This document shows positions 9,701 through 24,514 of a DNA stretch of 64,000 bases, piece after piece. Source of the stretch: Paraflavitalea sp. CAU 1676. Its GTDB lineage: Bacteria; Bacteroidota; Bacteroidia; Chitinophagales; Chitinophagaceae. Location: assembly GCF_029223285.1 (NCBI RefSeq), contig NZ_JARHUJ010000007.1:372001-436000 (forward strand), in the 5' to 3' direction. The position numbers and the translations under genes were made by a program. Each line of letters opens with the position of its first letter. Within the stretch, counting starts at the first letter, position 1. The notes under the pieces are model-generated. The model made no database searches and had not been told where the DNA came from. It was given only the letters and a program-made list of their open reading frames with translations.

Positions 9701-9902
9701 GGTGAACGACATGACGATCGTGTACAGCGTTCCGGAGAAGATCATCAAAAAAGCAGGGTTCAGCAACGCCCGGATACTCGCTACGGGCAACAACCTGTGG
9801 GTACTGAAGAATCCGCTCAAATACAAGGATCCCTACTCCAGCTACATATTCGATTATCCAACCCTCCGAACCATTTCTGTAGGTCTCAGCCTGGGACTCT
9901 AA
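6729..9902 (+). CDS. SusC/RagA-type TonB-linked outer membrane receptor
   Basis: The 1057-residue protein has a signal peptide (residues 1-23), a carboxypeptidase-regulatory-like domain at about 35-110 (VSGKVSDEKGAPLAGATVAV), the TonB-box/plug start (VVVVGYGTQKRSQTTGAV) and a plug with LKDATAAIYGAAGAKGVILI near 220, followed by a beta-barrel to the end. A Ca-binding-like loop, DINGDGVITDKDK, occurs near 885, as in many SusC proteins. It imports oligomers across the outer membrane with energy from TonB. The SusD partner follows after 15 bases and a third lipoprotein after that. The neighbouring M1 peptidase hints at peptide rather than glycan substrate, but it is on the other strand, so this is only a guess. 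Confidence 0.95.
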   Translation: MRKRMIALSAAIILAVLTTPGFAADTGYSPWFQQTDKTVSGKVSDEKGAPLAGATVAVKGSKVSTLTKEDGTFTLKVPTGSTMLTVSFVGMLDQEVNVAEKTMISVTLNGMGGNMNDVVVVGYGTQKRSQTTGAVATIKAQDIQDIPAPNIAGTLRGRVAGLGVSSVSGRPGAGITLNVRNAFVSDQADDVGATNQPLYVIDNIIVTKSDFDALDPSMVEDITILKDATAAIYGAAGAKGVILITTKRGKPGAPKLNYNGYVGHTDATRKPEMLSGYDLATLLNDTYRINNVAPSNFFTQKDLDYIQRNEQKSWFDEIWRPALTQRHNLSLSGGSDKMTFFVGGSYQNENANYASMKADKFSFRSGLTAKIANNVKADINFNVDHNIKTSKNGLSENDQQFLEKIIQIPRWVPYSINGKWVNFNSNLGMHPQGQMESGYYENTKTKGYRINTSLSYAPESGPLKGLTARLQFSQAGNGTDRDDYRPNYKIYNFIRGGNNGALYTDTLTPTGAEINVVQGTNQFLRRKLGNANSYQATFTLQYQRTFGQHSINVIAGGEQSESNAENLAVEWLGQEIPNVDEFWAFGQSPVVRDKDISESSKRSFFSRLSYNFAGKYSLEGITRYDASANFATGNIWGVFPSVGLGWLVSEERFFRDVLPSVNYFKLRANFGLTGDDRIDQRLWQEWYAINITGYMYNETLVPGLKQNRIPNPDITWEKKRTLNIGADVSLFNNKLSLGVDVFQNFSYDAFDKGATDNFPMYAGFTPPLVNYMERYSWGSEFSIGYQTRFTPDLSFKSSINFSFGNAVTSRTYYNPYLLWDRQAEDWQIHFGTDPRKYNSNNIGMITEGMFRSQEDVDAFLAKKPNYTINGLVPQAGWLYFKDINGDGVITDKDKTTMFDHIDPTLATGIQLSLTYKSLAMNVNIAARFGGKEFYDSKARRSRPTPNNNVPSFWTDRWTPENHNGKFPRHDDASIVAGWESDFWAVDGTMIRVNDMTIVYSVPEKIIKKAGFSNARILATGNNLWVLKNPLKYKDPYSSYIFDYPTLRTISVGLSLGL

Positions 9903-9917
9903 GCTAAAACGACGACA

Positions 9918-11771
9918 ATGAAAAAGATACTTCAACTCTCTATATACCTGCTGGCTGGACTTACCGCCGGCCTCTTCACGAGCTGCAAAAAAACGGAAGA
10001 CTTCCTGCGATTACCCAATCGGGATGGCCTGGATGCGCGCATCTGGGAAACAGAGGGCGCCGTGCAGTACTTCCTGAATGAAACGTATCACGTGATCATG
10101 CCCGAGTTCTATTACCAGTATACCCTGAACAGCTATGCGTTTCATATGGGCAGCGATGAGAACCTCTATTCCGCTGCCGACGGGTCGATCAAAAAACTGT
10201 TCAACTTCAACGGCGTGATGATCGCCAACGATGTAAAATATGTGGGCGCCAAATACCAGGGCACCAACCCCGGCGACAACCGCTATTTCGACATCGCCCG
10301 CTGTAACATCGCCATTGCCAACCTGCCGGTTAGTCAAACCATACCGGCGGCCACCAAACGCTCCATGCTGGGACAGTTCTATGTACTGCGGGCCATGGCC
10401 TACCTGGGCCTCACCAAGGTATATGGCGGCATGCCGCTTGTGCTGGAGCCGCAGAGCCCCGGCGACCTGAAACTGAGCGGACGGGTAAAAGCTAAAGTGA
10501 TGTTTGAGCAGATCGTGAAAGACCTCGACTCGGGCATGGTGATGCTGGATGGCGTTACCTGGCTGGATGCTACGGAGAGGGGCAAACTCACCAAAGCGGC
10601 AGCGGCAGCCATCAAGGCAAAAGCCCTGTTGTACTGGGCTAGCCCACAGTTCAACCCGGTGAATGATGGAAAGCATCGTTATGACGCAACACGCTGGGAA
10701 GCGGCGCATAAGGCTACGAAAGAAGCCTATGAGATCTGTAAGAACGCAGGCCATGCGTTGGTAGCAGATTATTCGAAGATCTTCCTCACCGAAGGCACTG
10801 CCAATAAAGAAGCGATCATCGTACGGTCTTATTCCGATAAAGTGGTGAAACGCACCCATGGCGTAGAAGCAAGGTGCCGTCCGGCATCCGAGCAAGGACA
10901 GCCCAATGATATGTATTACGCCAGCACCCGCATGATCGATGCCTACACCATGAAGGATGGTACACCTATCAACCAGAGTGCCGCCTATGACCCCGAGATG
11001 TTCTGGCTCAACCGCGACCCACGCTTCGACGCAACGATCGCTTACAATGGCGCTCCCTGGAAACTAAGTGGTGTTGCTGGCCGCCGCCAATGGACCTATG
11101 TAAAGGCCCTCAACGAAACCGGCGACCGTGGTTTTTATTGCAAACGCTTCTCCAGTCCCGACCTGCCTGCCGGCAGTGTTCGCCAGGCCAATGACCTGGG
11201 TGGCAGTGGCATGGATTGGATAGAGCTGCGCTTTGCGGAAGTGATGCTCGACTACGCAGAAACCGCCAATGAAACCGGCGACATGGCCACGGCAAAAACA
11301 CTCGTGCGCGAGATCCGCCAACGTGCCGGTATTCAGGCAGGCGCCAATGATTACGGCCTCGGCTTTGCCACCAGCAAAGACCAGCTGCGCGACCTGATCC
11401 TGAACGAGCGCATGGTGGAATTTGCCTTCGAAGGTAAACGCCACGACGACCTGCGCAGAACGAGAAGAATGCATTTGCTGACCGGCAACCTGTTGTCTAT
11501 GCAGTTCGAATGTATCGACGACAACAAACGTAAATTCCTGGAAACCCTCAACGCTGCCGGCAAACTCAACCGCGATACGCTCGATATGACCAATAAAGCA
11601 TCGGTAAAAGCATTTTTCAAAGCGCCCCGCCTGATCACGGTATCGGGCAATGGCGGATTTGCAATGCCTGAATTCTATTACTTCTTTGGCCTATCGAATC
11701 AGTTCATCAATTCGAGTCCGCTGCTGGAACAAACCATTGGCTGGGATGGCGGCACATTCGATCCATTGTAA
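9918..11771 (+). CDS. SusD/RagB-family substrate-binding lipoprotein
   Basis: The 617-residue product starts with a lipoprotein signal (lipobox LFTSC, then KKTEDFL) and has the SusD helical layout: 'RYFDIARCNIAIANLPVSQ' near 118, 'GQFYVLRAMAYLGLTKVYGG' near 155 (the TPR-like core), and near the C-terminal third 'WIELRFAEVMLDYAETANE' followed by 'LRDLILNERMVEFAFEGKRH'. These are the classical SusD motifs. It sits on the cell surface and caps the SusC barrel encoded 15 bases upstream. The coding region ends 46 bases before the next lipoprotein gene, which is probably in the same transcript. Confidence 0.95.
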   Translation: MKKILQLSIYLLAGLTAGLFTSCKKTEDFLRLPNRDGLDARIWETEGAVQYFLNETYHVIMPEFYYQYTLNSYAFHMGSDENLYSAADGSIKKLFNFNGVMIANDVKYVGAKYQGTNPGDNRYFDIARCNIAIANLPVSQTIPAATKRSMLGQFYVLRAMAYLGLTKVYGGMPLVLEPQSPGDLKLSGRVKAKVMFEQIVKDLDSGMVMLDGVTWLDATERGKLTKAAAAAIKAKALLYWASPQFNPVNDGKHRYDATRWEAAHKATKEAYEICKNAGHALVADYSKIFLTEGTANKEAIIVRSYSDKVVKRTHGVEARCRPASEQGQPNDMYYASTRMIDAYTMKDGTPINQSAAYDPEMFWLNRDPRFDATIAYNGAPWKLSGVAGRRQWTYVKALNETGDRGFYCKRFSSPDLPAGSVRQANDLGGSGMDWIELRFAEVMLDYAETANETGDMATAKTLVREIRQRAGIQAGANDYGLGFATSKDQLRDLILNERMVEFAFEGKRHDDLRRTRRMHLLTGNLLSMQFECIDDNKRKFLETLNAAGKLNRDTLDMTNKASVKAFFKAPRLITVSGNGGFAMPEFYYFFGLSNQFINSSPLLEQTIGWDGGTFDPL

Positions 11772-11817: not shown

Positions 11818-12780
11818 ATGAAACGATATACGATCAGAACGGCCGCCCTCCTATTCGCCTGTTGCGCGTTGCTGGGCGCCTGTAAAAAAGAAGCGCAGAA
11901 CATCTTCAACATGTTCGACGTAACACTCGAGCTGCACAACAACAAGGAAAGCGCTGCCAAAGAATACAATGAGGTAAACCCGAACGATACGCTGGTGATC
12001 GATTTCACCATCCATTCACCCAACAAAGACATGTACATGATCTGTATATGGCGGGCCGGCCAGGGTGTGCCGGGCATCAAGATCCCGATCAATGATCCAG
12101 CGAAGCGGCGCTCCTACTCGGATGCCGTAACCATTAAAGCCGACCAGGGCGTGGGCACCACTACCTTTCGCGTTTGGGCGCTCGACGAAGACGGCGTTTA
12201 CTTAGGCGATGGCGATAAGATGATCACGCTTTCGGTGAAGACAGATTACAAGTACCTGCCCAATCGCAGCCTCTTTCTGCCCGATACGGCCACGAAGAAA
12301 GCGCCTTCCTTTTTCTCCCTGAGCAAGGGAACCAGCTTCAATTACGCAGATGCTGCACCGATATCGGCCGATATCGACTTTGCGATCTACCAGAAGTTTG
12401 TCAAGAACCCCAGCCCACCTGCCGGAGGGCCCGATACGACGTTGATACGTTGCCTGTATACGCCAGGCGCCGATCCAAATCCTTTTCCACTGTACGACCT
12501 AAGCAGCTGGACCAAACGCGGCACATTATTTTCGGCGCCCGTGAGTGGCTCGGCGGCCAACTTCACCAGCATGTTCAAAACGGGAGTGGCCATTGAGACG
12601 GAAGCGAAAAAACGAACGATTAACCTCACCCACTATGCCACTTTCCCGGGCATTCAGTCGGGCCAGTTCATTTACTTTAAAACACCCGAAGGAAAGTATG
12701 GCGTCATGCTCGTTCATATCTTTACCCTGACATACGACGACAAGCCGTACCTGAATGTAAGTATCAAGGTGCAGCAGTAA
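11818..12780 (+). CDS. Lipoprotein of unknown function in the SusCD operon
   Basis: ATG 11818 gives 320 residues with a lipoprotein signal (MKRYTIRTAALLFACCALLG then ACKKEAQ). The body is beta-rich with no catalytic motif that I recognise; segments such as TLVIDFTIHSPNKDMYMICI and ATTFRVWALDEDGVYLG-type strands suggest an immunoglobulin or PKD-like fold, as in SusE/SusF-like accessory lipoproteins. Its place after susC and susD suggests a surface-exposed accessory binding role. Its last 17 bases overlap the 3' end of the convergent M1 peptidase gene, so the two transcripts are complementary there. Confidence 0.75.
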   Translation: MKRYTIRTAALLFACCALLGACKKEAQNIFNMFDVTLELHNNKESAAKEYNEVNPNDTLVIDFTIHSPNKDMYMICIWRAGQGVPGIKIPINDPAKRRSYSDAVTIKADQGVGTTTFRVWALDEDGVYLGDGDKMITLSVKTDYKYLPNRSLFLPDTATKKAPSFFSLSKGTSFNYADAAPISADIDFAIYQKFVKNPSPPAGGPDTTLIRCLYTPGADPNPFPLYDLSSWTKRGTLFSAPVSGSAANFTSMFKTGVAIETEAKKRTINLTHYATFPGIQSGQFIYFKTPEGKYGVMLVHIFTLTYDDKPYLNVSIKVQQ

Positions 12781-14434
12781 CGGCCGCCACGTTCACGTAA
12801 TACATGGCCTCAATGGCAGTTTTAGTGAACAACGAGGCCTGTTCACTGTTGACGGTACTGCTTTGCCATTGTTCCTTTGGCATGATCCTGACATTGGCCG
12901 TACTACTCTTCAACACCAATGGCAGGTTAAAGCCGGGTACACAGTTGCTGTAGCGATAGAATACTTTAGTCTTGTCATCACTGAAGTAATATTCAAAGCT
13001 GGGTATTTGCGTGGTGCGCAGGTACTGATCGAACACCTTGCTATAGTTGAAACCGGCCTTTGCACTTACATATCTTTCCACCTCCGTCGAATTGACTGTT
13101 TTGTGGTAGAAGTCCTTGTTGAGGCCACGCAGGATATTGCGGAACCGGTTATCATCATCCATACTGTGACGAATCGAATGCAACAGGTTGCCGCCTTTGG
13201 GATACATATCACCACTACCCTGCGCATTGACATAGTAAGCTGGAATGATCGTTTTGTCGTTGCGGATACCGCGGCGTATGCCCTGGTTGTATTGATTGGC
13301 AGCCTCTACACCAAAGAGGTAATCGATAAAGAGTGTTTCACTATAATTGGTGAATCCTTCATGCACCCACATATCGGCCAGATCGTTGGTGGTAATGTTG
13401 TTGCCAAACCATTCATGGCCGCTTTCGTGAATGATGATAAAATCCCATTTCATACCCCAGCCTGTGCCAGATCCATCGCGGCCACGGTATCCGGGTTTGT
13501 ACCAGTTACCGTAGGATACCGCGCTTTGGTGTTCCATGCCCGTATTGGAGGTTTCTACCAGCTTGTAGCCATCCTCATAAAAAGGATAAGGACCAAACCA
13601 GTGCTCGAAAGCATGCAGCATAATGTTCACTTCTTTGGGCATGTAGGCTTTTGCTTTTTCGAGATTGTAGTCGAGTACCCAATAATTGATATCGAGGGGG
13701 CCTTTTTCTCCTTTGTATGTTTCGCCCCAGTTAACATATTTACCGATATAAGGGATGAGGCAATAATTGCTGATGGGATTAACAACCGACCACTTCCACG
13801 AGGTAGTACCATCACCATTTGCCTCTTTGGACTCAAGGCGCCCCATCGCGATCGCAGAGAGGGAGTCGGCCACCGTCATGGTAAGGCTGGCGCCTTTATC
13901 GGGCTCATCACTCTGATGATCTTTGCAGGGATACCAGATGGAAGCGCCCAGCCCCTGGCAGGTTACCGTCATCCACGGACGGCCGAGTGAGTCGGTGGTC
14001 CAGGTCCAGCCGCCGTCCCAGGGCGGACGTACGGCTTCATGCGCCTTGCCGTGGTAGTAGATGGCAACGGTATTAGTGCTGTTCTTCTTTTGCTTTGGGG
14101 TATTGATATACCAAACCGTACCCTCTTTAGCAAAGGATAAGGTTTCCTTTTGATTGAAGATTACACTATCGATGAGGAGCGGTTCGCGCATGTCGATTTG
14201 CATGCGCTGGCTATTGCCCACCACTTTATAGGTGATCGTATTAGATCCGCTGATAGTTTTATTGGCGTAGTCGGGTTTTACCGCCAGGTCGTACCGCTGG
14301 ATATCCCACCAGGTACGTTCGGGCGTGAGCGAACCGCGGAGCGTGTCGGCATGAGTAAAGGACTTCGATTGCGCGCCTGCATACAAGGTGAGCAGGCAGG
14401 CACAGGAAACAGTGAGCATTTTTTTTGTCAGCAT
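12764..14434 (-). CDS. M1-family zinc aminopeptidase, secreted
   Basis: Start ATG 14434 gives 556 residues with a signal peptide ending near YAGAQS. The zinc site is present: HESGHEWFG at about 336 (HExxH) and the third ligand in 'WVHEGFTNY' at about 359. The exopeptidase loop appears as GMEHQS near 299 instead of the usual GAMEN. A Tyr of the catalytic type may lie further on. The protein lacks the long C-terminal helical domain found in the largest M1 members and resembles the shorter secreted M1 peptidases of Bacteroidota. It removes N-terminal residues from peptides outside the cytoplasm. It converges on the SusCD operon, so functional linkage to peptide uptake is only suggested. Confidence 0.9.
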   Translation of the reverse strand: MLTKKMLTVSCACLLTLYAGAQSKSFTHADTLRGSLTPERTWWDIQRYDLAVKPDYANKTISGSNTITYKVVGNSQRMQIDMREPLLIDSVIFNQKETLSFAKEGTVWYINTPKQKKNSTNTVAIYYHGKAHEAVRPPWDGGWTWTTDSLGRPWMTVTCQGLGASIWYPCKDHQSDEPDKGASLTMTVADSLSAIAMGRLESKEANGDGTTSWKWSVVNPISNYCLIPYIGKYVNWGETYKGEKGPLDINYWVLDYNLEKAKAYMPKEVNIMLHAFEHWFGPYPFYEDGYKLVETSNTGMEHQSAVSYGNWYKPGYRGRDGSGTGWGMKWDFIIIHESGHEWFGNNITTNDLADMWVHEGFTNYSETLFIDYLFGVEAANQYNQGIRRGIRNDKTIIPAYYVNAQGSGDMYPKGGNLLHSIRHSMDDDNRFRNILRGLNKDFYHKTVNSTEVERYVSAKAGFNYSKVFDQYLRTTQIPSFEYYFSDDKTKVFYRYSNCVPGFNLPLVLKSSTANVRIMPKEQWQSSTVNSEQASLFTKTAIEAMYYVNVAAVTAAP

Positions 14435-14539
14435 GACCAAATTTACCGGTAGCCAGGCAATAGGGATGGCATGAATTTAACCGGTTTCATACGGAAATTG
14501 ATAAAGAAACCCTATTTTCGGGCCCACTCCTCTAATACC

Positions 14540-15139
14540 ATGCTGAAAAACCTAACCGTCGCAGCCCTGCTGCTTTGCACCATAACAACCCTTGCGCAAA
14601 ACGCTCCTGTTTCCGCCACAGACAATTCTCCGGCCAAAGCCCTTTTCAGGCAAAAAGACACTCCGTACTGGATCGACAATTTCCGCCAGCTGAGAGACGC
14701 GATCTATCAGAAAAACATAGGCAAATCAAAAGCCTTTTTCCAGTTCCCGGTAGCCTATGCAGGCAATGAGATCTGGTACGTAGCCACGCCGGGTCAAACC
14801 GTATCTGCCGACAATATCAAGCCTTTTACTGATAAAGACCTCACTAAATACTTCCGGAGCTTGTTCCCCAAAGGCTTTACGAAAGCGCTGTTGAAGGTCA
14901 AGACCGAAGAGCTCTTCAAGAACGGTGAGCATACCACACCTGCCATCATTGAAGGAAATACTGAATACGTCCTGTACTCGACCTACGACAAAGCTGAACA
15001 CATGCTTCAACTTAACCTGGCTTCCAAATTCAACCTGAATAATGAAGACGATGAAGTGGGCGAATACAACATCATCTACTACTTCACCGTAACAGAAAAG
15101 GGGCACCTGATCTTCAGCCATATCTCCACCGCCGGCTAA
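14540..15139 (+). CDS. Small secreted protein of unknown function
   Basis: ATG 14540 gives 199 residues starting with a signal peptide (MLKNLTVAALLLCTITTLAQ). The mature part has mixed alpha/beta character, with 'TPYWIDNFRQLRDAIYQKN' near 40 and a terminal beta segment 'YNIIYYFTVTEKGHLIF'. I do not recognise the family. A -7-like element with one mismatch (TATTTTCG) lies about 30 bases before the start. Divergent from the M1 peptidase gene, with which it shares a 105-base control region. Confidence 0.65.
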   Translation: MLKNLTVAALLLCTITTLAQNAPVSATDNSPAKALFRQKDTPYWIDNFRQLRDAIYQKNIGKSKAFFQFPVAYAGNEIWYVATPGQTVSADNIKPFTDKDLTKYFRSLFPKGFTKALLKVKTEELFKNGEHTTPAIIEGNTEYVLYSTYDKAEHMLQLNLASKFNLNNEDDEVGEYNIIYYFTVTEKGHLIFSHISTAG

Positions 15140-15194
15140 AACGATCCCTGGCAACAGACAAAAGCTCCGTGGTACCCACATCATCTCCAGGTAT

Positions 15195-15202
15195 TATCTT
15201 TG
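15195..15202 (+). promoter_or_regulatory. -7 promoter element (TATCTTTG) directly before a GNAT gene
   Basis: TATCTTTG matches the Bacteroidota -7 consensus TAnnTTTG exactly and ends only 7 bases before the ATG at 15210. No clear TTG lies at the -33 position. If this is used, transcription would begin at or almost at the start codon, giving a leaderless mRNA. Confidence 0.5.
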
Positions 15203-15209
15203 CGCGTAT

Positions 15210-15683
15210 ATGCTTCCCGAAATTGAGTACCGCATCGCCCAGGCAGCCATTGAATTTGAAGATGGCAGAAAACTGTTTGAGGAATATGTCGCCTCACTGG
15301 GAGTGGACCTCTCCTTCCAGGACTTCAGCCAGGAATTACAGGTAATTGACCGGCAGTACAACCAGCCGGAAGGCGCCTTATTACTCGCCTACCAGGATGG
15401 CGTAGCAATCGCCTGTGCAGGTGTACGTAAACTGGACGATAGCACTGCCGAACTGAAGCGCATGTACGTAAGGGACGGCTTTAAGGGGCAGGGCATTGGT
15501 GTGCAACTGATGCAACGTTCGCTGCAGGTTGCCCGCGAACGGGGCTATCGGAAAATAAGGCTCGACACACTCAAAACCATGATCAAGGCCCAGGCTTTGT
15601 ACAGGTCTTTCGGTTTTTATGAGATCCCCTCCTACCGCTATAATCCGCTGGAAGGCGCTGTTTACATGGAAAAGGAACTATAA
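15210..15683 (+). CDS. GNAT-family N-acetyltransferase
   Basis: The 157-residue product has the GNAT core: beta-4 'AELKRMYVRDGFKGQGIGVQ' with the acetyl-CoA loop (R/Q-x-x-G-x-G form, 'FKGQGIG') at about 92-98, followed by helix 'LMQRSLQVARERGYRKI' and the beta-5/alpha-4 'LRLDT...ALYRSFGFYEI' ending. GNAT enzymes transfer acetyl from acetyl-CoA to amines; the substrate here is unknown. The protein length is typical for single-domain members. It stands alone between unrelated genes and may be expressed from a leaderless transcript (see the -7 element just upstream). Confidence 0.9.
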   Translation: MLPEIEYRIAQAAIEFEDGRKLFEEYVASLGVDLSFQDFSQELQVIDRQYNQPEGALLLAYQDGVAIACAGVRKLDDSTAELKRMYVRDGFKGQGIGVQLMQRSLQVARERGYRKIRLDTLKTMIKAQALYRSFGFYEIPSYRYNPLEGAVYMEKEL

Positions 15684-16051
15684 GCCGGGGCAGTTGAACC
15701 TGTAATTTGGAAACTACACTGCACAAATCAGGCAGTTCAACCATTTCAGCTTTCTTCCTTCATTTAATTCGATTTTCTTCGCAGCTGTATGTGTATCTAG
15801 CTCAGTCGCATACCTAAAATTCCAAACTATGAAGTCCAATATCCCAAACAGGCCATGCCTGTACATGCTCCTGCATCAACTTTCGCCACAACCGGCGCTA
15901 CACACGGAAATATTCCATAAAATTTTATTGGCAGCTATCAACTAAAGCATCTTAGCCTTTATAATAATTTATTGTCTGGCGGTTTACCAACCTGGCCGGA
16001 CGGGACCTTTATTTTCTAATACAAACCTCTATTCACAAAAAACAACAATTC
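15684..16051. other. Intergenic region upstream of the A-B-A-B lipoprotein cluster
   Basis: About 370 bases with no supportable gene. It contains a CAGGCCATGCCTG inverted repeat near 15850-15862 and an AT-rich run just before the first lipoprotein start. I found no full TTG-N19-TAnnTTTG match, although the promoter of the lipoprotein cluster should lie here. Confidence 0.45.
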
Positions 16052-16723
16052 ATGAAAAAACCCGTAATTCTGTTTGGTATGTTGGTGGCAGGTAGCTTAG
16101 CATTTACCTCCTGTACCAAGAACCTGAAAGACGATGTCAGCGACCTGAAAAAAGAAATTGACTCGCTGAACAAAAGCAATGCAGAACTGGAAGGTCAGGT
16201 AGGCGGCATTGAAATTATCCTTGGCGCTAATGAACCCATTACAGCTACCACCACCTTTACCGACAACAACAATGCGACTGTAACCGTTAAAGACACGTAT
16301 AAATTCAAAGCGGGCAACTCCTCCACGCAATATGCGAAAGGCAACAGCGATGGCACCTACCGAATTTACATCGAGCGTTTCAGCGATGTAGAATGGTATG
16401 AAGGCGCCCGCGTGGAATTCGTGTATAACCCAACAACCAAGGAGATCACGCAAAAAAGAGTACGTCATTATTGGGATAGCCCGGACAACTACAACGATAA
16501 CGCCGACTATGGCACCATATCCCCTACCCACTCTGGCTTACAGATCAACATTACTGTCAACAACTTTAATGCCACCACGGGTGAAATTTCTCTTACTGTT
16601 GCAGCAAGTGGAGATGCCACCTACTCAGGTCTCGAGACCTATTACTCACCCAATCCTGGTAAGCCTTACAGCACTTCCTTTGCCTATACAGGTAAGGTGA
16701 AAGTGTTCCCTTACGTGCCTTAA
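16052..16723 (+). CDS. Tandem coiled-coil lipoprotein, copy A1
   Basis: This 223-residue protein starts with a lipoprotein signal (MKKPVILFGMLVAGSLAF, lipobox FTSC) and a short coiled coil at about 22-50 (KNLKDDVSDLKKEIDSLNKS), with leucines and valines at heptad spacing. A beta-rich body follows, with 'GANEPITATTTFTD' near 58 and the conserved core 'YIERFSDVEWYEGA' near 108. It ends in a strand 'GKVKVFPYVP'. No known domain is recognised. Its closest relative is A2 two genes downstream (same MKKP start, GANEPI and TFTDN motifs), and it shares the core with the B type. The predicted location is outer membrane, anchored by lipid with the coil next to the membrane. Confidence 0.85.
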   Translation: MKKPVILFGMLVAGSLAFTSCTKNLKDDVSDLKKEIDSLNKSNAELEGQVGGIEIILGANEPITATTTFTDNNNATVTVKDTYKFKAGNSSTQYAKGNSDGTYRIYIERFSDVEWYEGARVEFVYNPTTKEITQKRVRHYWDSPDNYNDNADYGTISPTHSGLQINITVNNFNATTGEISLTVAASGDATYSGLETYYSPNPGKPYSTSFAYTGKVKVFPYVP

Positions 16724-16787
16724 CAGAACCGGATAAACGACCATTAAGTCAGTTAACTAAATCCAAATCTTTACAAAATCAACATCT

Positions 16788-17444
16788 ATGAAAAGATCGT
16801 TCCTGATACTGGGAATATCCATAGCAGGCCTGGCCTCGCTGCCATCCTGTACGAAGAACCTGAAGGATGATATCAAATACCTGGAGACCCAGGTAGACTC
16901 GCTCAAAAAGCGCAATGCTACTTTACGGGAACAGGCGAAAGCCACGCAAAATGTGCTGGGTTCCGACGAGCCGATCATGGCTACTACCACCTACAAGGAT
17001 GCAAGCGGCGCCGAAAAGAAATACCAGGACACCTATAGTTTTAAAGGGGGCAACTACTCGACGCATTACATGGTGGACCTCGAAGACGGCACGTATGAAA
17101 TTTACATTGAACGCTTCAGCGATGTTGAGTGGTACGAAGGGGCGTGGACCGAGTTCAGGTACAATCCAACTACCAAAGAACTCACGCAGAAACGCGGTGG
17201 ACAATACTGGGAAAACCCCTCTCAATGGTTCAACCCATCCTATAATGGCGGCAGCACCGGTTGTGTAGTGGATATCAACCTGAAGTCGATCAACATGACT
17301 ACCGGAGACATATCAATCGACTTCACCGGCACAGCAGATGGCACTTATACGGCCGGCAGCAGCCGGTGGCCCAACCCCGGCGCAGCGCATACTACGAAAT
17401 TTTCTTTCACAGGAAAGCTGAGTGTCCTGAAGAGAGGATTCTAA
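16788..17444 (+). CDS. Tandem coiled-coil lipoprotein, copy B1
   Basis: The 218-residue protein has signal MKRSFLILGISIAGLASLPS with lipobox LPSC, a coiled coil (LKDDIKYLETQVDSLKKRNA) and the shared core YIERFSDVEWYEGAWTEF. Features that separate it from the A type are the 'EQAKATQN(V/I)LG' linker, 'TTYKDASGA' instead of TFTDN, and one conserved Cys in 'TGCVVDINLKSI' near 165. It ends 'GKLSVLKRGF' with a Lys/Arg-rich end. It begins 64 bases after A1 and is followed by A2 after 52 bases, consistent with one transcript. Function unknown; the B and A forms may interact through their coils. Confidence 0.85.
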   Translation: MKRSFLILGISIAGLASLPSCTKNLKDDIKYLETQVDSLKKRNATLREQAKATQNVLGSDEPIMATTTYKDASGAEKKYQDTYSFKGGNYSTHYMVDLEDGTYEIYIERFSDVEWYEGAWTEFRYNPTTKELTQKRGGQYWENPSQWFNPSYNGGSTGCVVDINLKSINMTTGDISIDFTGTADGTYTAGSSRWPNPGAAHTTKFSFTGKLSVLKRGF

Positions 17445-17496
17445 GCAACCCGTTTCGCTCATTTCATTAACAGTACCAGTTACTCAAAATACAATT

Positions 17497-18177
17497 ATGA
17501 AAAAACCAGCAATTATTTTAGGTATAATCATGTCAGGCTCCCTGGCATTCACCTCGTGCACGAAAGACCTTAAGAACGATATCAGCGATCTTAAAAAGGA
17601 AGTAGATTCGCTGCATTCCAGCAACGATAGCATAGCCGGCCGCCTCAACGGCATCGACATCATCCTCGGCGCCAACGAACCTATTGTAGCTACCACCACC
17701 TTTACCGATAACAGCAATGCTACCAGGACGATCAAGTCAACCTATAAGTTCAAGGCAGGCAATAGCTCAACACAGGTTGCCCGCGGCTACGCGGATGGCA
17801 CTTACGAAATTTATATAGAGCGATTTGGCGACGTGGAATGGGATGAAGGTGCGGCGGTTCGGTTTAGGTACAACCCTACTACCAAAGCAATCACGGAAAA
17901 GAGAGTATACCACTATTGGGACAATGCCGACGCCTATCAGGACCGTGCTTATTACGGAGAGGGGTATGACACCCATGAAGGTCTCACCATCAACATTACA
18001 GTAAACAACTTCAACATTACCACCGGCGAAATCTCGCTCAACGTGTCGGCCAGCGGCAATGCCGACTATGCAACGGCTGTTTACAATTGGGGATATGCCC
18101 CGGCCAACGGCAAAGCATACAACACCGCCTTTACTTTCGCTGGCAAAGTGAAAGTATGGCCCTATAGTGGAAGCTAA
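17497..18177 (+). CDS. Tandem coiled-coil lipoprotein, copy A2
   Basis: This 226-residue protein repeats the A type: signal MKKPAIILGIIMSGSLAF with lipobox FTSC, coil (LKNDISDLKKEVDSLHSSND), 'ILGANEPIVATTTFTDNSNA' and the core 'YIERFGDVEWDEGAAVRF'. More than half of the residues match A1 by eye. Compared with A1, the core carries two changes (Ser to Gly, Tyr to Asp), so this copy has drifted in the most conserved part. It keeps the A-type ending 'GKVKVWPYSGS'. Transcribed with its neighbours. Confidence 0.85.
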   Translation: MKKPAIILGIIMSGSLAFTSCTKDLKNDISDLKKEVDSLHSSNDSIAGRLNGIDIILGANEPIVATTTFTDNSNATRTIKSTYKFKAGNSSTQVARGYADGTYEIYIERFGDVEWDEGAAVRFRYNPTTKAITEKRVYHYWDNADAYQDRAYYGEGYDTHEGLTINITVNNFNITTGEISLNVSASGNADYATAVYNWGYAPANGKAYNTAFTFAGKVKVWPYSGS

Positions 18178-18213
18178 TTTACTCCCATCCTACATCCTTA
18201 AAAGTTAACAGCG

Positions 18214-18873
18214 ATGAAACGATCATTTATAGTGTTGGGAATATCCCTGATGGGGTTGGCCACCTTACCCTCCTGCACCAAGAACCTGAAGGACGATGTC
18301 AACGACCTTCAGTCGCAGGTGGATTCCCTGAAAAAACGAAATGCGGCCTTAAGGGATCAGGCAAAAGCTACCCAAAACATTCTGGGGGCCGATGAGCCGA
18401 TCACCGCTACCACTACGTACAAAGATGCCTCTGGAGCCAACAAGGTGATCAAAGAAACCTATAGCTTTAAATCGGGCAATTATTCAACGCACTACATGGT
18501 GAAGAAAGACAATGGCCTGTATGAAGTATATATCGAACGATTCAGCGACGTGGAATGGTACGACGGAGCCTGGTGCTATTTTGACTATGATCCGGCAACT
18601 AAGACCATCTCGAACCAGGGAGGCGGTCATTATTGGAGACAACCCGATTATGACTATGCGTACTACAATGCTCCTTCGGGCACTGCCGGCTGTGAAGTTA
18701 CTATCAACCTGAAAAGTATCGATGTAACAACAGGCCAAATATCCGTCGACTTCAGCGCGGCTGCTACGGCCGCCTATACAACGAACAATTATAACTTCCC
18801 CAACCCGGGCCAGGCATGCGCCACCAACTTTTCTTTTGCCGGTAAGTTGAGCGTGCTGCAAAGAGGTTATTGA
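18214..18873 (+). CDS. Tandem coiled-coil lipoprotein, copy B2
   Basis: The 219-residue protein repeats the B type: signal MKRSFIVLGISLMGLATLPS (lipobox LPSC), coil (LKDDVNDLQSQVDSLKKRNA), 'DEPITATTTYKDASGA', core 'YIERFSDVEWYDGAWCYF' and the B-specific Cys in 'AGCEVTINLKSI'. An extra Cys is present inside the core (WCYF). It ends 'GKLSVLQRGY'. It lies 36 bases after A2 and is followed by a strong hairpin, making it the last gene of the cluster. Function unknown. Confidence 0.85.
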   Translation: MKRSFIVLGISLMGLATLPSCTKNLKDDVNDLQSQVDSLKKRNAALRDQAKATQNILGADEPITATTTYKDASGANKVIKETYSFKSGNYSTHYMVKKDNGLYEVYIERFSDVEWYDGAWCYFDYDPATKTISNQGGGHYWRQPDYDYAYYNAPSGTAGCEVTINLKSIDVTTGQISVDFSAAATAAYTTNNYNFPNPGQACATNFSFAGKLSVLQRGY

Positions 18874-18902
18874 TCAGCGTCTTTTATTTTAGAACGGTAA
18901 AC

Positions 18903-18934
18903 AGCGGCTGCATTGAGGGATCAATGTGGCCGCT
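18903..18934 (+). terminator. Rho-independent terminator after the lipoprotein cluster
   Basis: A 14-pair stem (AGCGGCTGCATTGA against TCAATGTGGCCGCT, two wobble pairs) with a GGGA loop is followed by TTGGCTTTT. It begins 30 bases after the stop of copy B2 and is well placed to end the four-gene transcript. Confidence 0.7.
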
Positions 18935-19132
18935 TGGCTTTTAGGACCCGTAATCGTGTAAAAATCCGACAGAAGTCATCCGGTGACGCCGGGGACCCCG
19001 TCCATCCCAAATCAACTCGCGCCAATTTTTGTTCACTTCGCGCAAACTTACATACACCTGACACCCCCATCGATCTGCCGTGCGCCTGCAATTGCTTCTT
19101 TTTGCATCCATAACAATAAAACCAACTAAGAC

Positions 19133-20920
19133 ATGAAGTCCCTTTACCTGGGTATAGTGCTACTGTTGTGCGGTCTGGTGCTGCACTCCTGTAGAAAAAA
19201 CGACAAGTTCAAGCCCACCCTCCAAATTGATAAATCAACCATCAACGTTACTGCGGAAGCTGGCAAAGCTTACCTGCAAGTGACCTCCAATACGGATTGG
19301 ACCATCACAGGCATGCCAGCATGGCTGGAAGTCAATCCTAAAACCGGTAAGGGAGATACACGCATAGAATTATCCTATCCAGTCAACGGCAATCCTGAAG
19401 CACGCGCCACCGCGCTTACCGTGAAAGCCGAGGGCGTTCTCAACAGCACGGTCGAATTTGCGCAAACGGGCACCAACCCTTCATTGCTGGCTGACAAAAA
19501 CACCTTATCTGTTACGGAAACTGGCAGCGAAGAAACGCTGGTCATCACCTCCAACGTAGCCTGGACCTTAAGCAGCATTCCATCCTGGATCGTTGCCGAT
19601 AAGACCAATGGACTGGCTGGTATTACAACGGTTAAGCTAACCATCGCCGCCAATGCGACCACTGCTCCCCGGAAATCAACCTTGAGCCTGATCAGTTCCT
19701 TTAATGGCGTAACACCCGTCAATATAGAGATCAACCAGGCACAGCCGCCGGTAACCATTAGCGCATTTACCACCTTTGGCAGGGGCGGTGACGAAGTCAC
19801 CATCGACGGCACAGGCTTTTCTGATGTTAAGGACAAGAATACTGTTACTATCAATGACAAAGCCGCTACCGTTACAGCAGCAACCACTACCAGGTTAAAA
19901 GTTACTGTTCCGCTAAAAGCAGGAACCGGTGTGATCAAAGTAAAAGTAGGAGAAAGAGAGATTGCTACACTCGCCAACTTCAATTACGAGTGGATATGGA
20001 TGGTCAGCGACTATGCAGGTACTGGTATTGCCGGTGTCTTCTTTAACAATCCCACCGGTGTAGCAGTAGATACGGAGGGCACGGTATATGTGGCCGACCA
20101 GAATGCTCACGCCATCTACAAGCTGACGCCCAATGCAGGAGGAACTGCAACCGGCGCATTATTTGCTGGCGATGCAGGCCTTGCGCCCGGGCTAGTGGAT
20201 GGCCAGGGTACCAGTGCCCGTTTCAGCCTGCCCACGAAATTAGCTGTCGACGAGGCAGGGAATGTATATGTAGCAGACGCGGATAATAACCGCATCCGCA
20301 AGATCACCAAGGGCGGATTGGTATCTACCATCCCGATTACGATCGATAGACCACAGGGCGTTGTTGTACTATCCAATGGTTATATATATGCAACAGAAGG
20401 CACCAACAATCGCGTTATGCAAATCACCAATACCAATGTAGTATCGGTTTATGCGCATAACAATGCAAGTGTACCGAATTTCCAGGGACCGATGGGTATC
20501 GCCACCGACGGCACCAAAGCTTTGTATATCGCCAGTAACTATAACAACAAGATCGGAGTAGCCTATCTGCCAAAAGATGGCGGCTGGTCATGGGGCACCC
20601 TCGCAGGCACCGGCGCCAACGGCAACGATAACGGTGCTGGCGCAACAGCAACGTTCGATGGTCCCAGAGACATAGCAGCAGACCAACATGGCAACATTTA
20701 CGTAGCCGACAATGCCAACCATATGATCAGGAAGATCAACATCAACAATGCCGACGTTACTGTATCGTCCTTTGGCGGAAGCAGCAACGGACAGACCAAT
20801 GGGCCATTGATGGCAGCCACTTTTAGCTACCCGCAAGGCATCACCGTTTCGAAAGATGGAACAACCATGTATGTATGTGATATGGGGTCAAAGAAGATCA
20901 GAAAGATAGCTTATCAATAA
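19133..20920 (+). CDS. BACON-BACON-IPT-NHL surface lipoprotein
   Basis: The 595-residue protein starts with lipobox LHSC (signal MKSLYLGIVLLLCGLVL). Two BACON-type domains follow at about 30-115 and 117-205 (each with 'TSNTDWTITGMPAWLEV' or 'TSNVAWTLSSIPSWIVA'), then an IPT/TIG domain at about 208-285 (GDEVTIDGTGFSDVKDKNTV) and a C-terminal NHL propeller with repeated 'GNVYVADADNNRIRKI' strands. BACON domains are thought to bind carbohydrate or mucin-like ligands; the propeller probably binds a ligand too. No catalytic motif is seen. It is a lone gene between the lipoprotein cluster and a convergent GNAT gene, ended by a shared terminator. Confidence 0.9.
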   Translation: MKSLYLGIVLLLCGLVLHSCRKNDKFKPTLQIDKSTINVTAEAGKAYLQVTSNTDWTITGMPAWLEVNPKTGKGDTRIELSYPVNGNPEARATALTVKAEGVLNSTVEFAQTGTNPSLLADKNTLSVTETGSEETLVITSNVAWTLSSIPSWIVADKTNGLAGITTVKLTIAANATTAPRKSTLSLISSFNGVTPVNIEINQAQPPVTISAFTTFGRGGDEVTIDGTGFSDVKDKNTVTINDKAATVTAATTTRLKVTVPLKAGTGVIKVKVGEREIATLANFNYEWIWMVSDYAGTGIAGVFFNNPTGVAVDTEGTVYVADQNAHAIYKLTPNAGGTATGALFAGDAGLAPGLVDGQGTSARFSLPTKLAVDEAGNVYVADADNNRIRKITKGGLVSTIPITIDRPQGVVVLSNGYIYATEGTNNRVMQITNTNVVSVYAHNNASVPNFQGPMGIATDGTKALYIASNYNNKIGVAYLPKDGGWSWGTLAGTGANGNDNGAGATATFDGPRDIAADQHGNIYVADNANHMIRKININNADVTVSSFGGSSNGQTNGPLMAATFSYPQGITVSKDGTTMYVCDMGSKKIRKIAYQ

Positions 20921-20962
20921 GCGCGCATTGCATTTATGTGAAAACCCACGCCCTGTTGATAT

Positions 20963-20989
20963 GCCCTCAAGAGCCCGGCTTTTGGGGGC
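20963..20989. terminator. Shared terminator between convergent genes
   Basis: A stem of up to 13 pairs (GCCCTCAAGAGCC with GGCTTTTGGGGGC, two wobbles) is followed by TTTCTTTT on the plus strand. It lies between the plus-strand gene ending at 20920 and the minus-strand gene ending at 20996 and could serve the plus strand best. Confidence 0.65.
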
Positions 20990-20995
20990 TTTCTT

Positions 20996-21478
20996 TTACG
21001 CTACCACGTACGACATCATTACTTCATCCACAAACCGACCTTCGCTTTTGAGGTGGGTATATTTGCGTAGTACCCCCTCTTGCTGAAAGCCGGCTTTTTC
21101 ATACAGGCGAATGGCCTTTTCATTGCCTGTATAGGTACTCAATTCAATGCGCAAAAATCCTTTTTCTTTACAGAGCGCAATGATCTCCTCCATCATTTTG
21201 CCGCCTAGTCCCCTCCCCATCAGGGTTGGCTCTACCGCCAATCCACCAACATATACGATGTGGGCACTACGGTGAGTGGCGGGGATCAGCTTGAACATGC
21301 CTGCAGGGACAGCGTCCTGCTCATAGATATAAATAATATTCTTAAGCAGTAAGTCACCAAAGATCGGCTTGAATGTTTCTTCATCCATGAGTTCGTACAA
21401 CAAGAATGGATTGGTGGCGGGGTGCATGTAGAGGCGATAAATGAAATCGAAGTCCTGCTCGCGGATAAGTCGGGTCAT
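20996..21478 (-). CDS. GNAT-family N-acetyltransferase
   Basis: ATG 21478 gives 160 residues (MTRLIREQDFDFIYRLYMHP). The acetyl-CoA site is seen as 'LAVEPTLMGRGLGGKMMEEI' near 80, with 'RGLGGK' filling the pyrophosphate loop, and the family C-terminal 'NEKAIRLYEKAGFQQEG' is intact. The open frame extends to 21526, but that adds residues without a start context. The substrate cannot be inferred. A TAGTTTTG -7 element lies 26 bases upstream. Confidence 0.88.
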   Translation of the reverse strand: MTRLIREQDFDFIYRLYMHPATNPFLLYELMDEETFKPIFGDLLLKNIIYIYEQDAVPAGMFKLIPATHRSAHIVYVGGLAVEPTLMGRGLGGKMMEEIIALCKEKGFLRIELSTYTGNEKAIRLYEKAGFQQEGVLRKYTHLKSEGRFVDEVMMSYVVA

Positions 21479-21504
21479 TTGTTTTTCTTTTGGCTTTGAG
21501 AAAG

Positions 21505-21512
21505 CAAAACTA
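21505..21512 (-). promoter_or_regulatory. -7 element for the GNAT gene
   Basis: On the minus strand the octamer TAGTTTTG fits TAnnTTTG. The expected -33 TTG is not at the usual distance, so this is a half match. A start site about 20 bases before the ATG at 21478 would follow. Confidence 0.35.
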
Positions 21513-21648
21513 CTGTATTTGAGCAATTCGCCGGCTCTGCCGTCTATACCCTTATGCGGGGATCGCTTTTATACTACAGAAGGATAGAATTATACATTGA
21601 CCGCAGGCGCCATACCCACCAACTTTGGGGTTTCAAACTACTACTAAT

Positions 21649-21894
21649 ATGGATGCTATCGAACTGGTGCCGGGCAACAGCCTCATCACCAAAACTCCGG
21701 AGGAGGGCCGGCACCTGGCCATCAAAATGTCCAGACTCATTATCAAAATAACTCAGCCGGATGCTGCCATGCGGGAAAAACTGCGGCCACGGTACGCAGA
21801 GGATGCTGCCATGCTTATTTCGATCGGACAAACCGTGGCCATGGAATTTGCCACAATAGCGGCTGCCAATAATTACTGGCGGAATACTCAGTAA
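21649..21894 (+). CDS. Small hypothetical protein
   Basis: ATG 21649 gives 81 residues (MDAIELVPGNSLITKTPEEG) with a hydrophilic, helix-friendly composition and a repeated AAAN ending, but no signal peptide or known domain. It lies between two minus-strand genes and ends 6 bases before the TonB receptor gene. The balanced composition makes it likely to be real; it could still be chance. Confidence 0.5.
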   Translation: MDAIELVPGNSLITKTPEEGRHLAIKMSRLIIKITQPDAAMREKLRPRYAEDAAMLISIGQTVAMEFATIAAANNYWRNTQ

Positions 21895-21900
21895 GCAGGT

Positions 21901-24465
21901 CTACAATACTTTGCAGGTAAGGGTACAGTAGTAGAGACCTTTGATGGATGGTCCGCCTGCAAAACTGTAATAATAAGTGTTGAAGAGATTGGAAGCTCCC
22001 ACCTTTACGCCCCAGTTGTCTTTGATCGGGTGGTATTGCACCTGCGCATCGACCGTATTGTGTGGAGGAAGCCATTCCGTAGCCAGTGAAGAAACCCAAA
22101 GATACCTGCTCTGCCAGCGAAAGTTTGCCTGAAATCCGAAGCGCGACCACAGGTGGGGGTTTCCGATATACAAGTTGTACATCCATTTCGGCGTATTGTA
22201 CCCGTCTTCCAGTCCGTCATTCCGTGTAGTGCGATCCAATCGGGAAAGGGTTACATTACCGCCCACTGTGTAGGCACGGTAAAAATTCCATGAAACACCC
22301 ATGGTGGTGGCAAAATTATAACAAACGGTCTTCGAGTTGGTCCAGAGGCGATACCTGTCCTGCTTTTGCCGGTCGTTCATATAGAACAACAAACTATCGG
22401 GCACAGTGGCTTTGGGTATGTTGGCCTCTATCTGCGCCATCAGGTGGTGATAAACATTGTAATAGAAGTCTACATCCATGATCAACCTGTTCTTTAGCAG
22501 GCTGGCGCGGTAGCCTGCTTCGATGCCATGGATCTCTTCGGGCCTGATATATGTGTAGCTATTCCTGACCAGCAGTGCCTGGTTTTTCACCACCGCCTGC
22601 GCTACCGTGAGGCCATTGGTATTGACGTCTTTTGTATTGGCCGCCTGGAAAGCATCGACCGATGCGCGGAGGTAACTATTCTCAAAGATACCATTCGACA
22701 TCACCGGCAAACCTCCCACCCTTTTTACGCCACCGCTGTTGATATTGGAAAATGCCTCGAACAAACTGGGGAAACGATACCCCTGCTGCAAGGCCAGGCG
22801 GAAATTGTGCTGCTGTACAGGTGAATATACCATCGACAGCCGCGGATTAAGCCTCGCTTCGAAGTATTGGTTCTTATCGACCCTCAACACAGCATTGATC
22901 TTCAGGCTTTGACCAAAGAAGTATTTGGTGGCCTGTATAAAACCGCCTGCTTTCCGGTAGTGAAGGTTGGAGCCTTGCTTGACGGGGTTGATAAAATAAT
23001 TTCCATCAGGCACCACGATATACTCCCTGTAATCGGCCCCATACAGGAGAGATAGTTTGTGCCTGGTATTGAGCTTCTTGAAAAGGTCGTCGGTAAGCGT
23101 ATGTTGCACTTCTGCATGCACCATCGATGCCTTCACGCGAAGCGCCGCTCCCTGGTCCCAGTTGTTGATATCCCGCAGGCGATCAATAATAGCAGCTGTT
23201 TCCGCCGTATTGGGCTGCGGCCTGCCTTTGTCGGCAAAACTTCTTGCCGCCTCCATAGCAGCCGGCACCGTGCTCCCACCGGATACCGAGGTTTTGTATT
23301 GCCTGGAGAAGTCGGCGAACCAATCATTATCACTTTTGAACTGCCGGTCTATATTTTCCGCCATGGAACGGATATTGTACGAATCGCCGGTATTCTCGCT
23401 ATTAATATATGCCCTGAATTGAACGCTGCGCGTACTCAGGGTGAGACTGTGCTGGCTGGTGATATAATTATCCAGGCGAAAGCGGTTGGTGCGTTGGTAA
23501 ATGGTATTGCTGCGCGCAATACGGAATGTGTAAGATAGTTGAACGTGAGCTGAAGGCCGGTAAGCCATGGTGAGGTCTCCCTTGATATTATCCAGGTCAT
23601 AACTGGCCATATCCCTTTCTGCATAACCGGTGCGGCTTACCACATATTGCTTACCACCCAGGGTAAGCGTACGCCGGTTGGATGCTTCATCTCCATAAAC
23701 ATTCACCAGGTCCTTTCCCGGATTTTGATGTACGGTAAGCCCCGTAGACAGGTTGGCCAGCTCATTGAGATCGGTGAGGTCATTGGCTACCCAATCGTAC
23801 CCCCGCGAATACGTACTATTCACTTTAATAGCAAATTTGTTGTTCCAGGCTTTGGCCCAGCGCAGGGAAGATTCGATAAAGAGAGCGGGATCGTGCAGAT
23901 CACTACTTACATGGTTGACACCTGTTTTTTGCATCACCGTCAAACCCTGGTAAAGGAATGGATCCTTCACTATAAAATTAGCGGTTCCGTTGATCGCATT
24001 CATGCCGTAAAGGGCAGATGCCATGCCAGGCAATACCTCAACTCGCAGAATATCCAGATCCCCGGGCCCCAGCGCATTGGCCATCGGGGCGCCGATATGG
24101 GGCGCCTGTATATCCATACCATCCACCATCTGCACAAAACGTACATTGGTGGTATTCGTAAAGCCACGGGCATTGATGACCTTGAAGCCAAGGCTGGGAG
24201 TGATCAGCTGGATCCCTTTGATATTCTCTATGGCATCGAAGAAGGAAGGCTGGGATGAGTGCCGGATGGCACGCAGATCAAGGTGTTCAATGGTTACCGG
24301 CGCCTGCATGATCTTTTCACCAACGCGGGAAGCAGACACGACTACTGCCGATAAGTTCTCCGCACTATCCTTTTTCGGCTGGGCCGGCTGGGCATGTGCA
24401 GATTGCCCCCGAACTATAAGCATGACGAGGGTGTATGCAATTAGTTTGCAGTTAGTGATGTTCAT
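21901..24465 (-). CDS. TonB-dependent outer membrane receptor
   Basis: The 854-residue product has a signal peptide (about 26 residues, ending SAHAQ), the TonB-box region 'LSAVVVSASRVGEKIMQAPV', a plug at about 45-165 with 'INARGFTNTTNVRFVQMVDG' and 'VLPGMASALYGMNAINGTAN', and a barrel whose last strand ends 'GLYYCTLTCKVL'. It lacks the carboxypeptidase-like N-domain of SusC proteins, so it belongs to the classical receptor class. The substrate is not evident. A perfect Bacteroidota promoter lies just upstream. The lipoprotein gene in front (24545-25423) is separately delimited by a hairpin. Confidence 0.92.
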   Translation of the reverse strand: MNITNCKLIAYTLVMLIVRGQSAHAQPAQPKKDSAENLSAVVVSASRVGEKIMQAPVTIEHLDLRAIRHSSQPSFFDAIENIKGIQLITPSLGFKVINARGFTNTTNVRFVQMVDGMDIQAPHIGAPMANALGPGDLDILRVEVLPGMASALYGMNAINGTANFIVKDPFLYQGLTVMQKTGVNHVSSDLHDPALFIESSLRWAKAWNNKFAIKVNSTYSRGYDWVANDLTDLNELANLSTGLTVHQNPGKDLVNVYGDEASNRRTLTLGGKQYVVSRTGYAERDMASYDLDNIKGDLTMAYRPSAHVQLSYTFRIARSNTIYQRTNRFRLDNYITSQHSLTLSTRSVQFRAYINSENTGDSYNIRSMAENIDRQFKSDNDWFADFSRQYKTSVSGGSTVPAAMEAARSFADKGRPQPNTAETAAIIDRLRDINNWDQGAALRVKASMVHAEVQHTLTDDLFKKLNTRHKLSLLYGADYREYIVVPDGNYFINPVKQGSNLHYRKAGGFIQATKYFFGQSLKINAVLRVDKNQYFEARLNPRLSMVYSPVQQHNFRLALQQGYRFPSLFEAFSNINSGGVKRVGGLPVMSNGIFENSYLRASVDAFQAANTKDVNTNGLTVAQAVVKNQALLVRNSYTYIRPEEIHGIEAGYRASLLKNRLIMDVDFYYNVYHHLMAQIEANIPKATVPDSLLFYMNDRQKQDRYRLWTNSKTVCYNFATTMGVSWNFYRAYTVGGNVTLSRLDRTTRNDGLEDGYNTPKWMYNLYIGNPHLWSRFGFQANFRWQSRYLWVSSLATEWLPPHNTVDAQVQYHPIKDNWGVKVGASNLFNTYYYSFAGGPSIKGLYYCTLTCKVL

Positions 24466-24484
24466 GAATCGCCTTTTCCTACGA

Positions 24485-24514
24485 CAAATCTAATCATTCT
24501 GCAGACTTTCGCAA
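24485..24514 (-). promoter_or_regulatory. Full Bacteroidota promoter of the TonB receptor
   Basis: On the minus strand, TTG (24514-24512) is followed after exactly 19 bases by TAGATTTG (24492-24485), matching the TTG-N19-TAnnTTTG consensus of the primary Bacteroidota sigma factor without a mismatch. Transcription would start near 24478, leaving a leader of about 13 bases before the ATG at 24465. Confidence 0.8.

Follow-up and report, generated by a model that had tools for sequence, protein, structure and literature searches.

The common picture of an outer-membrane lipoprotein is that of a single anchored domain. Lpp forms a trimer attached to the cell wall, a linkage that uses its C-terminal lysine, and SusD is helical. 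DUF4988 (PF16378) is an N-terminal part of Bacteroidota surface proteins, and we know of no zipper stalk in the lipoproteins of the staphylococcal lpl cluster. For Capnocytophaga, a surface export signal C-X-K-(D/E)2-X with lysine at +3 has been described (PMC5080379), and in phytochrome-regulated diguanylate cyclases 54% of the linkers are reported to differ by multiples of seven (PMC9587094). Here, we analyzed a 64,000-nucleotide stretch of the Paraflavitalea sp. CAU 1676 genome (contig NZ_JARHUJ010000007.1, positions 372,001 to 436,000; the window) which carries four consecutive lipoprotein genes, A1, B1, A2 and B2 (Table 1). We tentatively read their products as outer-membrane, surface-facing lipoproteins with dimeric zipper stalks and all-beta binding heads that likely form A:B heterodimers in the window genome, and give this reading somewhat less than an even chance.

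At E <= 0.001, a profile built from the four proteins matched 13 genomes in a sample of 394 from the same taxonomic family. After removal of two genomes (G023 and G251) with matches confined to the N-terminal or coil part, 11 genomes with 19 family members remained. In all 19 members, the distance from the LKDD motif (or LKND, MKDD) to the LGxxEP motif is 7, 14, 21, 28, 35, 42 or 49 residues. On a head-only tree the coil length changed at least six times, and by our arithmetic six successive changes would all be multiples of seven by chance about once in 100,000 if every remainder were equally likely. A control segment in the head had lengths of 32, 34, 35, 36 and 37 residues and one of 53 (possibly a misplaced anchor), stepping by 1-2 residues; two other head segments were invariant and hence uninformative, one of them being read in 14 of the 19 members. 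The distance from the lipid-bearing cysteine to the head deviates by one residue in three members; the register is thus kept from KDD to the head and not to the lipid. This heptad-only stalk is the most interesting part of the system and was absent from the prediction originally made from the window sequence.

With the Leu or Met of LKDD set as position d, large hydrophobic residues were found at 83 of 86 d and 62 of 86 a positions, with Asn in 17 more a positions, compared with 0-8% at b, c, e, f and g. Leaving out the fixed anchor residue at each coil end gave 64 of 67 for d and 43 of 67, plus the 17 Asn, for a. Leu prevails at d and Val, Ile or Leu at a, and each of the nine 28-residue coils has Asn at its third a position. 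A published design for parallel in-register dimers uses Val or Ile at a, with Asn taking the a position of the third heptad (PMC4570195). The sequence features of a parallel dimeric leucine zipper (a/d heptads, Leu at d, Val, Ile or Leu at a, and an Asn layer at a) are present in the family except in the five members whose linkers measure 7 or 14 residues; these lack Asn at a. This recipe suggests a parallel, in-register dimer. Two chains would zip in register via the d leucines, the a-position Val, Ile or Leu and the Asn layer; two lipids would therefore hold one dimer with its two heads next to each other, and the heptad number would determine how high they stand. On this account, the proteins would form a small, lineage-limited family consisting of a lipid anchor, a short K(D/N)D start, a parallel two-stranded zipper stalk and, as the head, an all-beta domain of about 165 residues.

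Each of the four proteins continues after the heptad helix with a C-terminal domain of about 165 residues. AlphaFold2, run on B2 with seven sequences, gave the helix and beta head listed in Table 1 with a mean predicted local distance difference test score (pLDDT) of 77.7. The A1 head alone was modeled with a pLDDT of 89.0 and a predicted template modeling score of 0.86, yielding eleven strands and one short helix; the head is thus modeled with confidence as all-beta. No known family could be assigned to it, as nothing in Pfam, NCBIfam, PHROGs, PDB sequences or Foldseek matched above threshold. Foldseek returned no PDB match at E <= 0.001 for full-length B2 or the A1 head, and no match among viral structures for full-length B2 at the same threshold. 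PsbO, HtaA, YceI and BcnB chains recurred in the PDB search with the A1 head at template modeling (TM) scores of about 0.2-0.36, too low for fold assignment; YceI-type chains, relevant for a comparison with the YceI/lipocalin-like barrel, scored 0.33-0.36, none at E <= 0.001. The window proteins matched Pfam and NCBIfam models only below threshold and mostly in the coil, and the best Pfam E-values across the 19 members belonged to coil models (DivIC, 5e-6; ZapB, 7e-6). DUF4988 gave 17.7 bits for A1 and 18.8 bits for B2, below its cut-off of 30 bits, with A2 and B1 not listed; six of the 19 members matched it at E <= 0.1 (best E 0.0011). In a scan of the four window proteins, the Lpp/OprI model NF040598 (cut-off 43 bits) reached 17.7 bits for B2, A1, B1 and A2 not being listed. 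PDB sequence matches covered the coil only (E >= 0.25), and none of the four window proteins matched a PHROG at E <= 0.01. Further, among the listed open-licence papers on Chitinophaga coiled-coil lipoproteins, coiled-coil-stalk lipoproteins, tandem lipoproteins and DUF4988, none was recognizably on this family, and DUF4988 itself appeared in none of those found for it.

The four genes are intact open reading frames (ORFs) for proteins of 218-226 residues, arranged head to tail on the plus strand with intergenic gaps of 64, 52 and 36 bases. All four products have a lipobox-type cysteine at residue 21 after a signal-peptide-like start, as judged by pattern and by eye rather than by a predictor. 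A1 and A2 are 67% and B1 and B2 65% identical, compared with 42-47% between A and B. The tree placed A1 with A2 (support 100/99) and B1 with B2 (100/100), and a clade of A1 with B1 was rejected by the approximately unbiased test (p 1e-32). The A-B-A-B array is real, and a two-gene unit was copied. In the window genome, a gene pair would have arisen first and then been copied as a pair. The proportions of nonsynonymous differences within types (pN) are 0.23 for A and 0.22 for B, and those of synonymous differences (pS) 0.83 and 0.75. With pN practically equal in A and B and synonymous sites at or close to saturation, the duplication is an old one, and all four genes have been kept under constraint. 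A1 and B1 are 87% identical in one 30-column core window, compared with 70% for B1 and B2. Recent gene conversion between the A1 and B1 cores was considered and rejected, as synonymous sites in the head are saturated and the letters in common are those of the family consensus (no recombination program was used); common ancestry together with drift of B2 therefore suffices for the likeness. The A/B split is not traceable outside the window genome: in topology tests, A grouped with G001_1 (p 0.08), B grouped with G001_2 (p 0.23) and the quartet alone (p 0.13) were all compatible with the data, and grouping the quartet with the pair of genome G001 gave p 0.041.

Several claims of the original prediction can be judged at this point. 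Its alternation of two lipoprotein types is supported by ORFs, identities and tree alike, the motifs quoted for each type are present, the lipobox-proximal coil has a clear heptad pattern, and its proposal that a pair rather than single genes was copied agrees with the clades obtained. Its statement that no described family has this plan holds for the head at database cut-offs. The cysteine regarded as conserved in the B type is common to B1 and B2, but the other 17 members carry Leu (16) or Val (1). A2 does depart from the family consensus in its core, as had been noted, but the B2 core block departs as well. The suggested ratio of nonsynonymous to synonymous substitution rates (dN/dS) is not given because dS was not finite, and the constraint is seen from pN and pS instead.

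Searching the window genome (8.84 Mb, 23 contigs) at E <= 1 returned the four array genes and two further matches (E 0.036 and 0.27) which are weak and partial, so we count no additional copy there. Copy number is two in G001 and G033, three plus one in G300 (an 88% complete metagenome-assembled genome) and one in each of G006, G227, G211, G288, G341, G364 and G385; several single ORFs that came out as two profile pieces were counted as one. Three proteins of G300 are those of a Chitinophagaceae metagenome-assembled genome (L002), and G300 falls into the family of the window genome, which is therefore taken to be Chitinophagaceae as well. The family occurs in two of five genomes of the window's genus, in five of ten of genus g72, always as one ORF, and in three of six of genus g3. 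A head-only profile at E <= 0.01 found 13 of the 394 genomes, namely the same 11 plus weak partial matches in G247 and G382. In broader draws, matches appeared in 4 of 395 genomes of the class and 6 of 395 of the phylum, only those in the window genome and G033, both Chitinophagaceae, being convincing in each. Scoring in all these large draws, including those from the 394 genomes, covered the top 7 or 9 candidates of each genome, and distant relatives may therefore have been missed. The family is thus found only in Chitinophagaceae in the genomes sampled. G426 was set aside for the same reason as G023 and G251. Partial head matches in G643 (E 8.5e-4), G247, G382, G656, G851, G933 and G1107 (E 3e-4 to 5e-3) were treated as chance because the two inspected were, by eye, a TonB receptor-like (G933) and a histidine kinase-like protein (G382). 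Cargo of mobile elements was likewise rejected, A1 having no plasmid match and the family profile no match in viral contigs.

This distribution bears on the most serious alternative, namely that the genes are ordinary tandem paralogues in which homodimers were multiplied for dose or head diversity by one block duplication, with no A-B pairing, which we regard as possible though on balance improbable. Single copies in 7 of the 11 genomes speak for it, and the two copies of G033 are near-equal (77% alike). Further, a slot between PepSY-type and HemL-type genes (named by eye) holds one family gene in G227 and G006 and three in G300 (L041:836-2940, with 7- and 14-residue linkers). The joint need for both types put forward in the original prediction does not hold as a rule for the same reason; the search for co-occurrence and copy number it had suggested found mostly single genes, with A and B types not recognizable beyond the window genome. 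Single occurrence in relatives, which it had named as contrary evidence, thus applies to the family but not to the window lineage. Against mere multiplication of homodimers stand the retention of all four genes to synonymous saturation and the charges along the coil.

Pairing was scored from g-e' contacts, opposite charges counting +1 and like charges -1. A chains scored positively with themselves (A1A1 +2, A2A2 +4) and with each other (A1A2 +3), B chains negatively (B1B1 -4, B2B2 -2, B1B2 -3) and all A-B combinations positively (A1B1 +2, A2B2 +2, A1B2 +3, A2B1 +1). The B homodimers would thus face net g-e' repulsion, whereas the proteins of the seven single-copy genomes have self scores of +2 (six) or 0 (one). 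As the like charges of B chains would oppose B-B and match A, A-B (and A-A) dimers would be expected. The two G001 proteins score -2 each with themselves and +2 together. A preference for hetero over mean homo pairing above zero was found for 5 of 8 within-genome pairs (mean 1.5) vs 6 of 28 between-genome pairs (mean 0.04); G001_2 took part in each of these six between-genome cases. When the pairing was moved along the heptad as an offset control, the B self-repulsion was gone, the A1B1 preference fell from 3 to at most 1 and that of A2B2 from 1 to 0 or less. A:B heteromers, as proposed in the original prediction, are made more likely by these crude counts without being established, and we consider them plausible in the window genome. 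Given few and related sequences, the charge-based preference is a lead and not a statistic.

With regard to the membrane side, a lipobox-type cysteine is found at residue 20 or 21 in all 19 members (pattern-based, after start choice). Lys is at +3 and Leu or Lys at +5 in all 19, the K(D/N)D motif falls between +5 and +8, and Asp within +6 to +8 is again present throughout. SusD proteins of the window genome start similarly, with Lys at +3 in 22 of 26 and an acidic residue within +6 to +8 in 22 of 26. This sample was taken from 30 loci of the genome's 102 matches to the SusD family PF14322; four lacked a lipobox by the rule used, and 2 of the remaining 26 were visibly mis-picked. Nine other lipobox-like starts in the window, a small control with poor picks which includes the window's SusD-like protein, showed each feature in three of nine. 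All family members thus have the N-terminal pattern of the genome's SusD proteins, and surface exposure on the outer membrane is likely.

A number of points weigh against the dimeric, surface-facing stalk with paired A and B chains. The anchors of the length test were picked after the alignment was seen, and the heptad steps could partly stem from copying of 21-base units, with no tandem repeat detected today in the longest family coil or the window array. The dimer stalk is not universal because the linkers of 7 residues in three members and 14 in two (G227, G006, G300_1, G300_2 and G300_3) lack the length needed for a stable zipper. Charges were scored by a crude +-1 count over four heptads in 9 of the 19 proteins, those with 28-residue coils, all related. 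The G001 preference stays at 4.0 at the control offset starting at e and is therefore not specific to g-e', and the G033 pair shows no hetero preference. Finally, the canonical Capnocytophaga signal C-X-K-(D/E)2 was found in none of the 19 members. A more far-reaching version is a zipper code at the membrane surface, in which register-locked two-stranded stalks change by whole heptads and duplicates evolve complementary charges until A and B obligately pair, presenting A:B heads at a set height; we consider this unlikely.

The heads would most likely bind an extracellular ligand such as a glycan or another surface molecule, which is a guess. The proteins could specifically be accessory binding lipoproteins of a polysaccharide-utilization system, comparable in role to SusE/SusF. 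In three genomes (G288, L033; G341, L035; G385, L037), the single family gene adjoins a sigma-factor gene and FecR-, SusC- and SusD-like genes, labeled by eye and from BLAST comparison with the SusC/SusD-like genes of the window. In G288, Pfam confirmed the sigma factor, alginate-lyase families (PF08787, PF05426) and a chondroitinase-B-like protein (PF14592), and G341 has counterparts of the alginate-lyase families. This context fits glycan binding, and the SusD count of the window genome points in the same direction. However, the three genomes among 11 probably represent one inherited arrangement, other loci have unrelated neighbors, and other genes lie between the array and the window's SusC/SusD-like genes (6729-11771); we regard this role as distinctly unlikely. 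A spacer facing the periplasm or a tether to the cell wall, of the Lpp/OprI kind and with the length of the coil as a ruler, to which the lipid anchor with its short coil, the sub-threshold NF040598 match and the missing canonical signal would fit, is very improbable in view of the large beta head, a C-terminal Lys in only one of 19 members (G364), coils down to 7 residues in three members and a Lys +3 start common to the genome's SusD proteins.

The surroundings of the array suggest a variable slot. A GNAT gene precedes it, and directly after it comes a lipoprotein-like ORF of 595 residues (19133-20920) that combines BACON domains and a TIG domain with an NHL propeller. Compared with window positions 12764-21894, genome G002 (L072) keeps the peptidase, GNAT and 89-residue neighbors and lacks the quartet and the NHL protein, with a SusC/SusD-type cluster (by eye) at the array position; the position is thus variable within the genus. 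Terminator-like sites numbered 5 vs 4.2 expected from shuffles, so the hairpin after B2 is weak evidence for a terminator, and sigma-70-type sites numbered 8 vs 5.7 (standard deviation 2.5) in shuffles. A strict Bacteroidota-type promoter was not found upstream of A1, and positions 12000-24500 had no Rfam match. As separate observations, the 102 SusD-family matches amount to a very large polysaccharide-utilization repertoire of the window genome, and G251 (L043:5192-7784) carries a tandem pair of lipoprotein-like ORFs that start C-F-K-D-D and join a long heptad coil to a C-terminal domain resembling LamG (by eye), a second case of lipobox, coil and separate head in tandem.

Table 1. Coordinates of the lipoprotein array and associated features in the window.
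Feature	Position	Strand	Description
A1 lipoprotein	16052..16723	+	223 aa; signal-peptide-like start, Cys21, zipper-type coil residues 25-57, all-beta head (modeled) from 57
B1 lipoprotein	16788..17444	+	218 aa; A1-like plan, extra Cys in head
A2 lipoprotein	17497..18177	+	226 aa; A1-like plan
B2 lipoprotein	18214..18873	+	219 aa; A1-like plan; AlphaFold2 model: helix 19-55, then beta head
A1 coil	16124..16222	+	33 residues, from L of LKDD (position d) to L of LGxxEP; Asn at third a
B1 coil	16860..16958	+	length and register as A1 coil
A2 coil	17569..17667	+	starts LKND; length and register as A1 coil
B2 coil	18286..18384	+	length and register as A1 coil
Terminator-like hairpin 3' of B2	18903..18934	+	14 pairs, weak T run; sole plus-strand one listed for 15600-19200

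In conclusion, the whole-heptad stalks of all 19 members represent a natural series running from 7 to 49 residues, with a clean separation of anchor, coil and head. The duplicated pair offers a natural test of how paralogues gain heterodimer specificity on a membrane, and A:B pairing, if true, would explain why a two-gene unit was copied. Compared with SusD and other Bacteroidota surface lipoproteins, the family shares Lys at +3 and nearby acidic residues but has no SusD domain match and a head modeled as all-beta. DUF4988 proteins are alike in lipobox-proximal heptads and a weak Pfam match, which stays below cut-off and spans only the coil and first head residues. Lpp/OprI zipper lipoproteins also carry a lipid-anchored coiled coil straight after the lipobox, whereas the present family adds the large beta head and a GCN4-like dimer pattern. 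The staphylococcal lpl cluster, from another phylum, likewise consists of tandem arrays of lipoprotein paralogues (PMC4470592). Closest to the stalk itself are the phytochrome-linked diguanylate cyclases, in which natural linker lengths often step by multiples of seven as the coiled coil must stay in register; these are cytoplasmic signaling enzymes, and the rule holds for about half of their linkers compared with 19 of 19 members here (PMC9587094).

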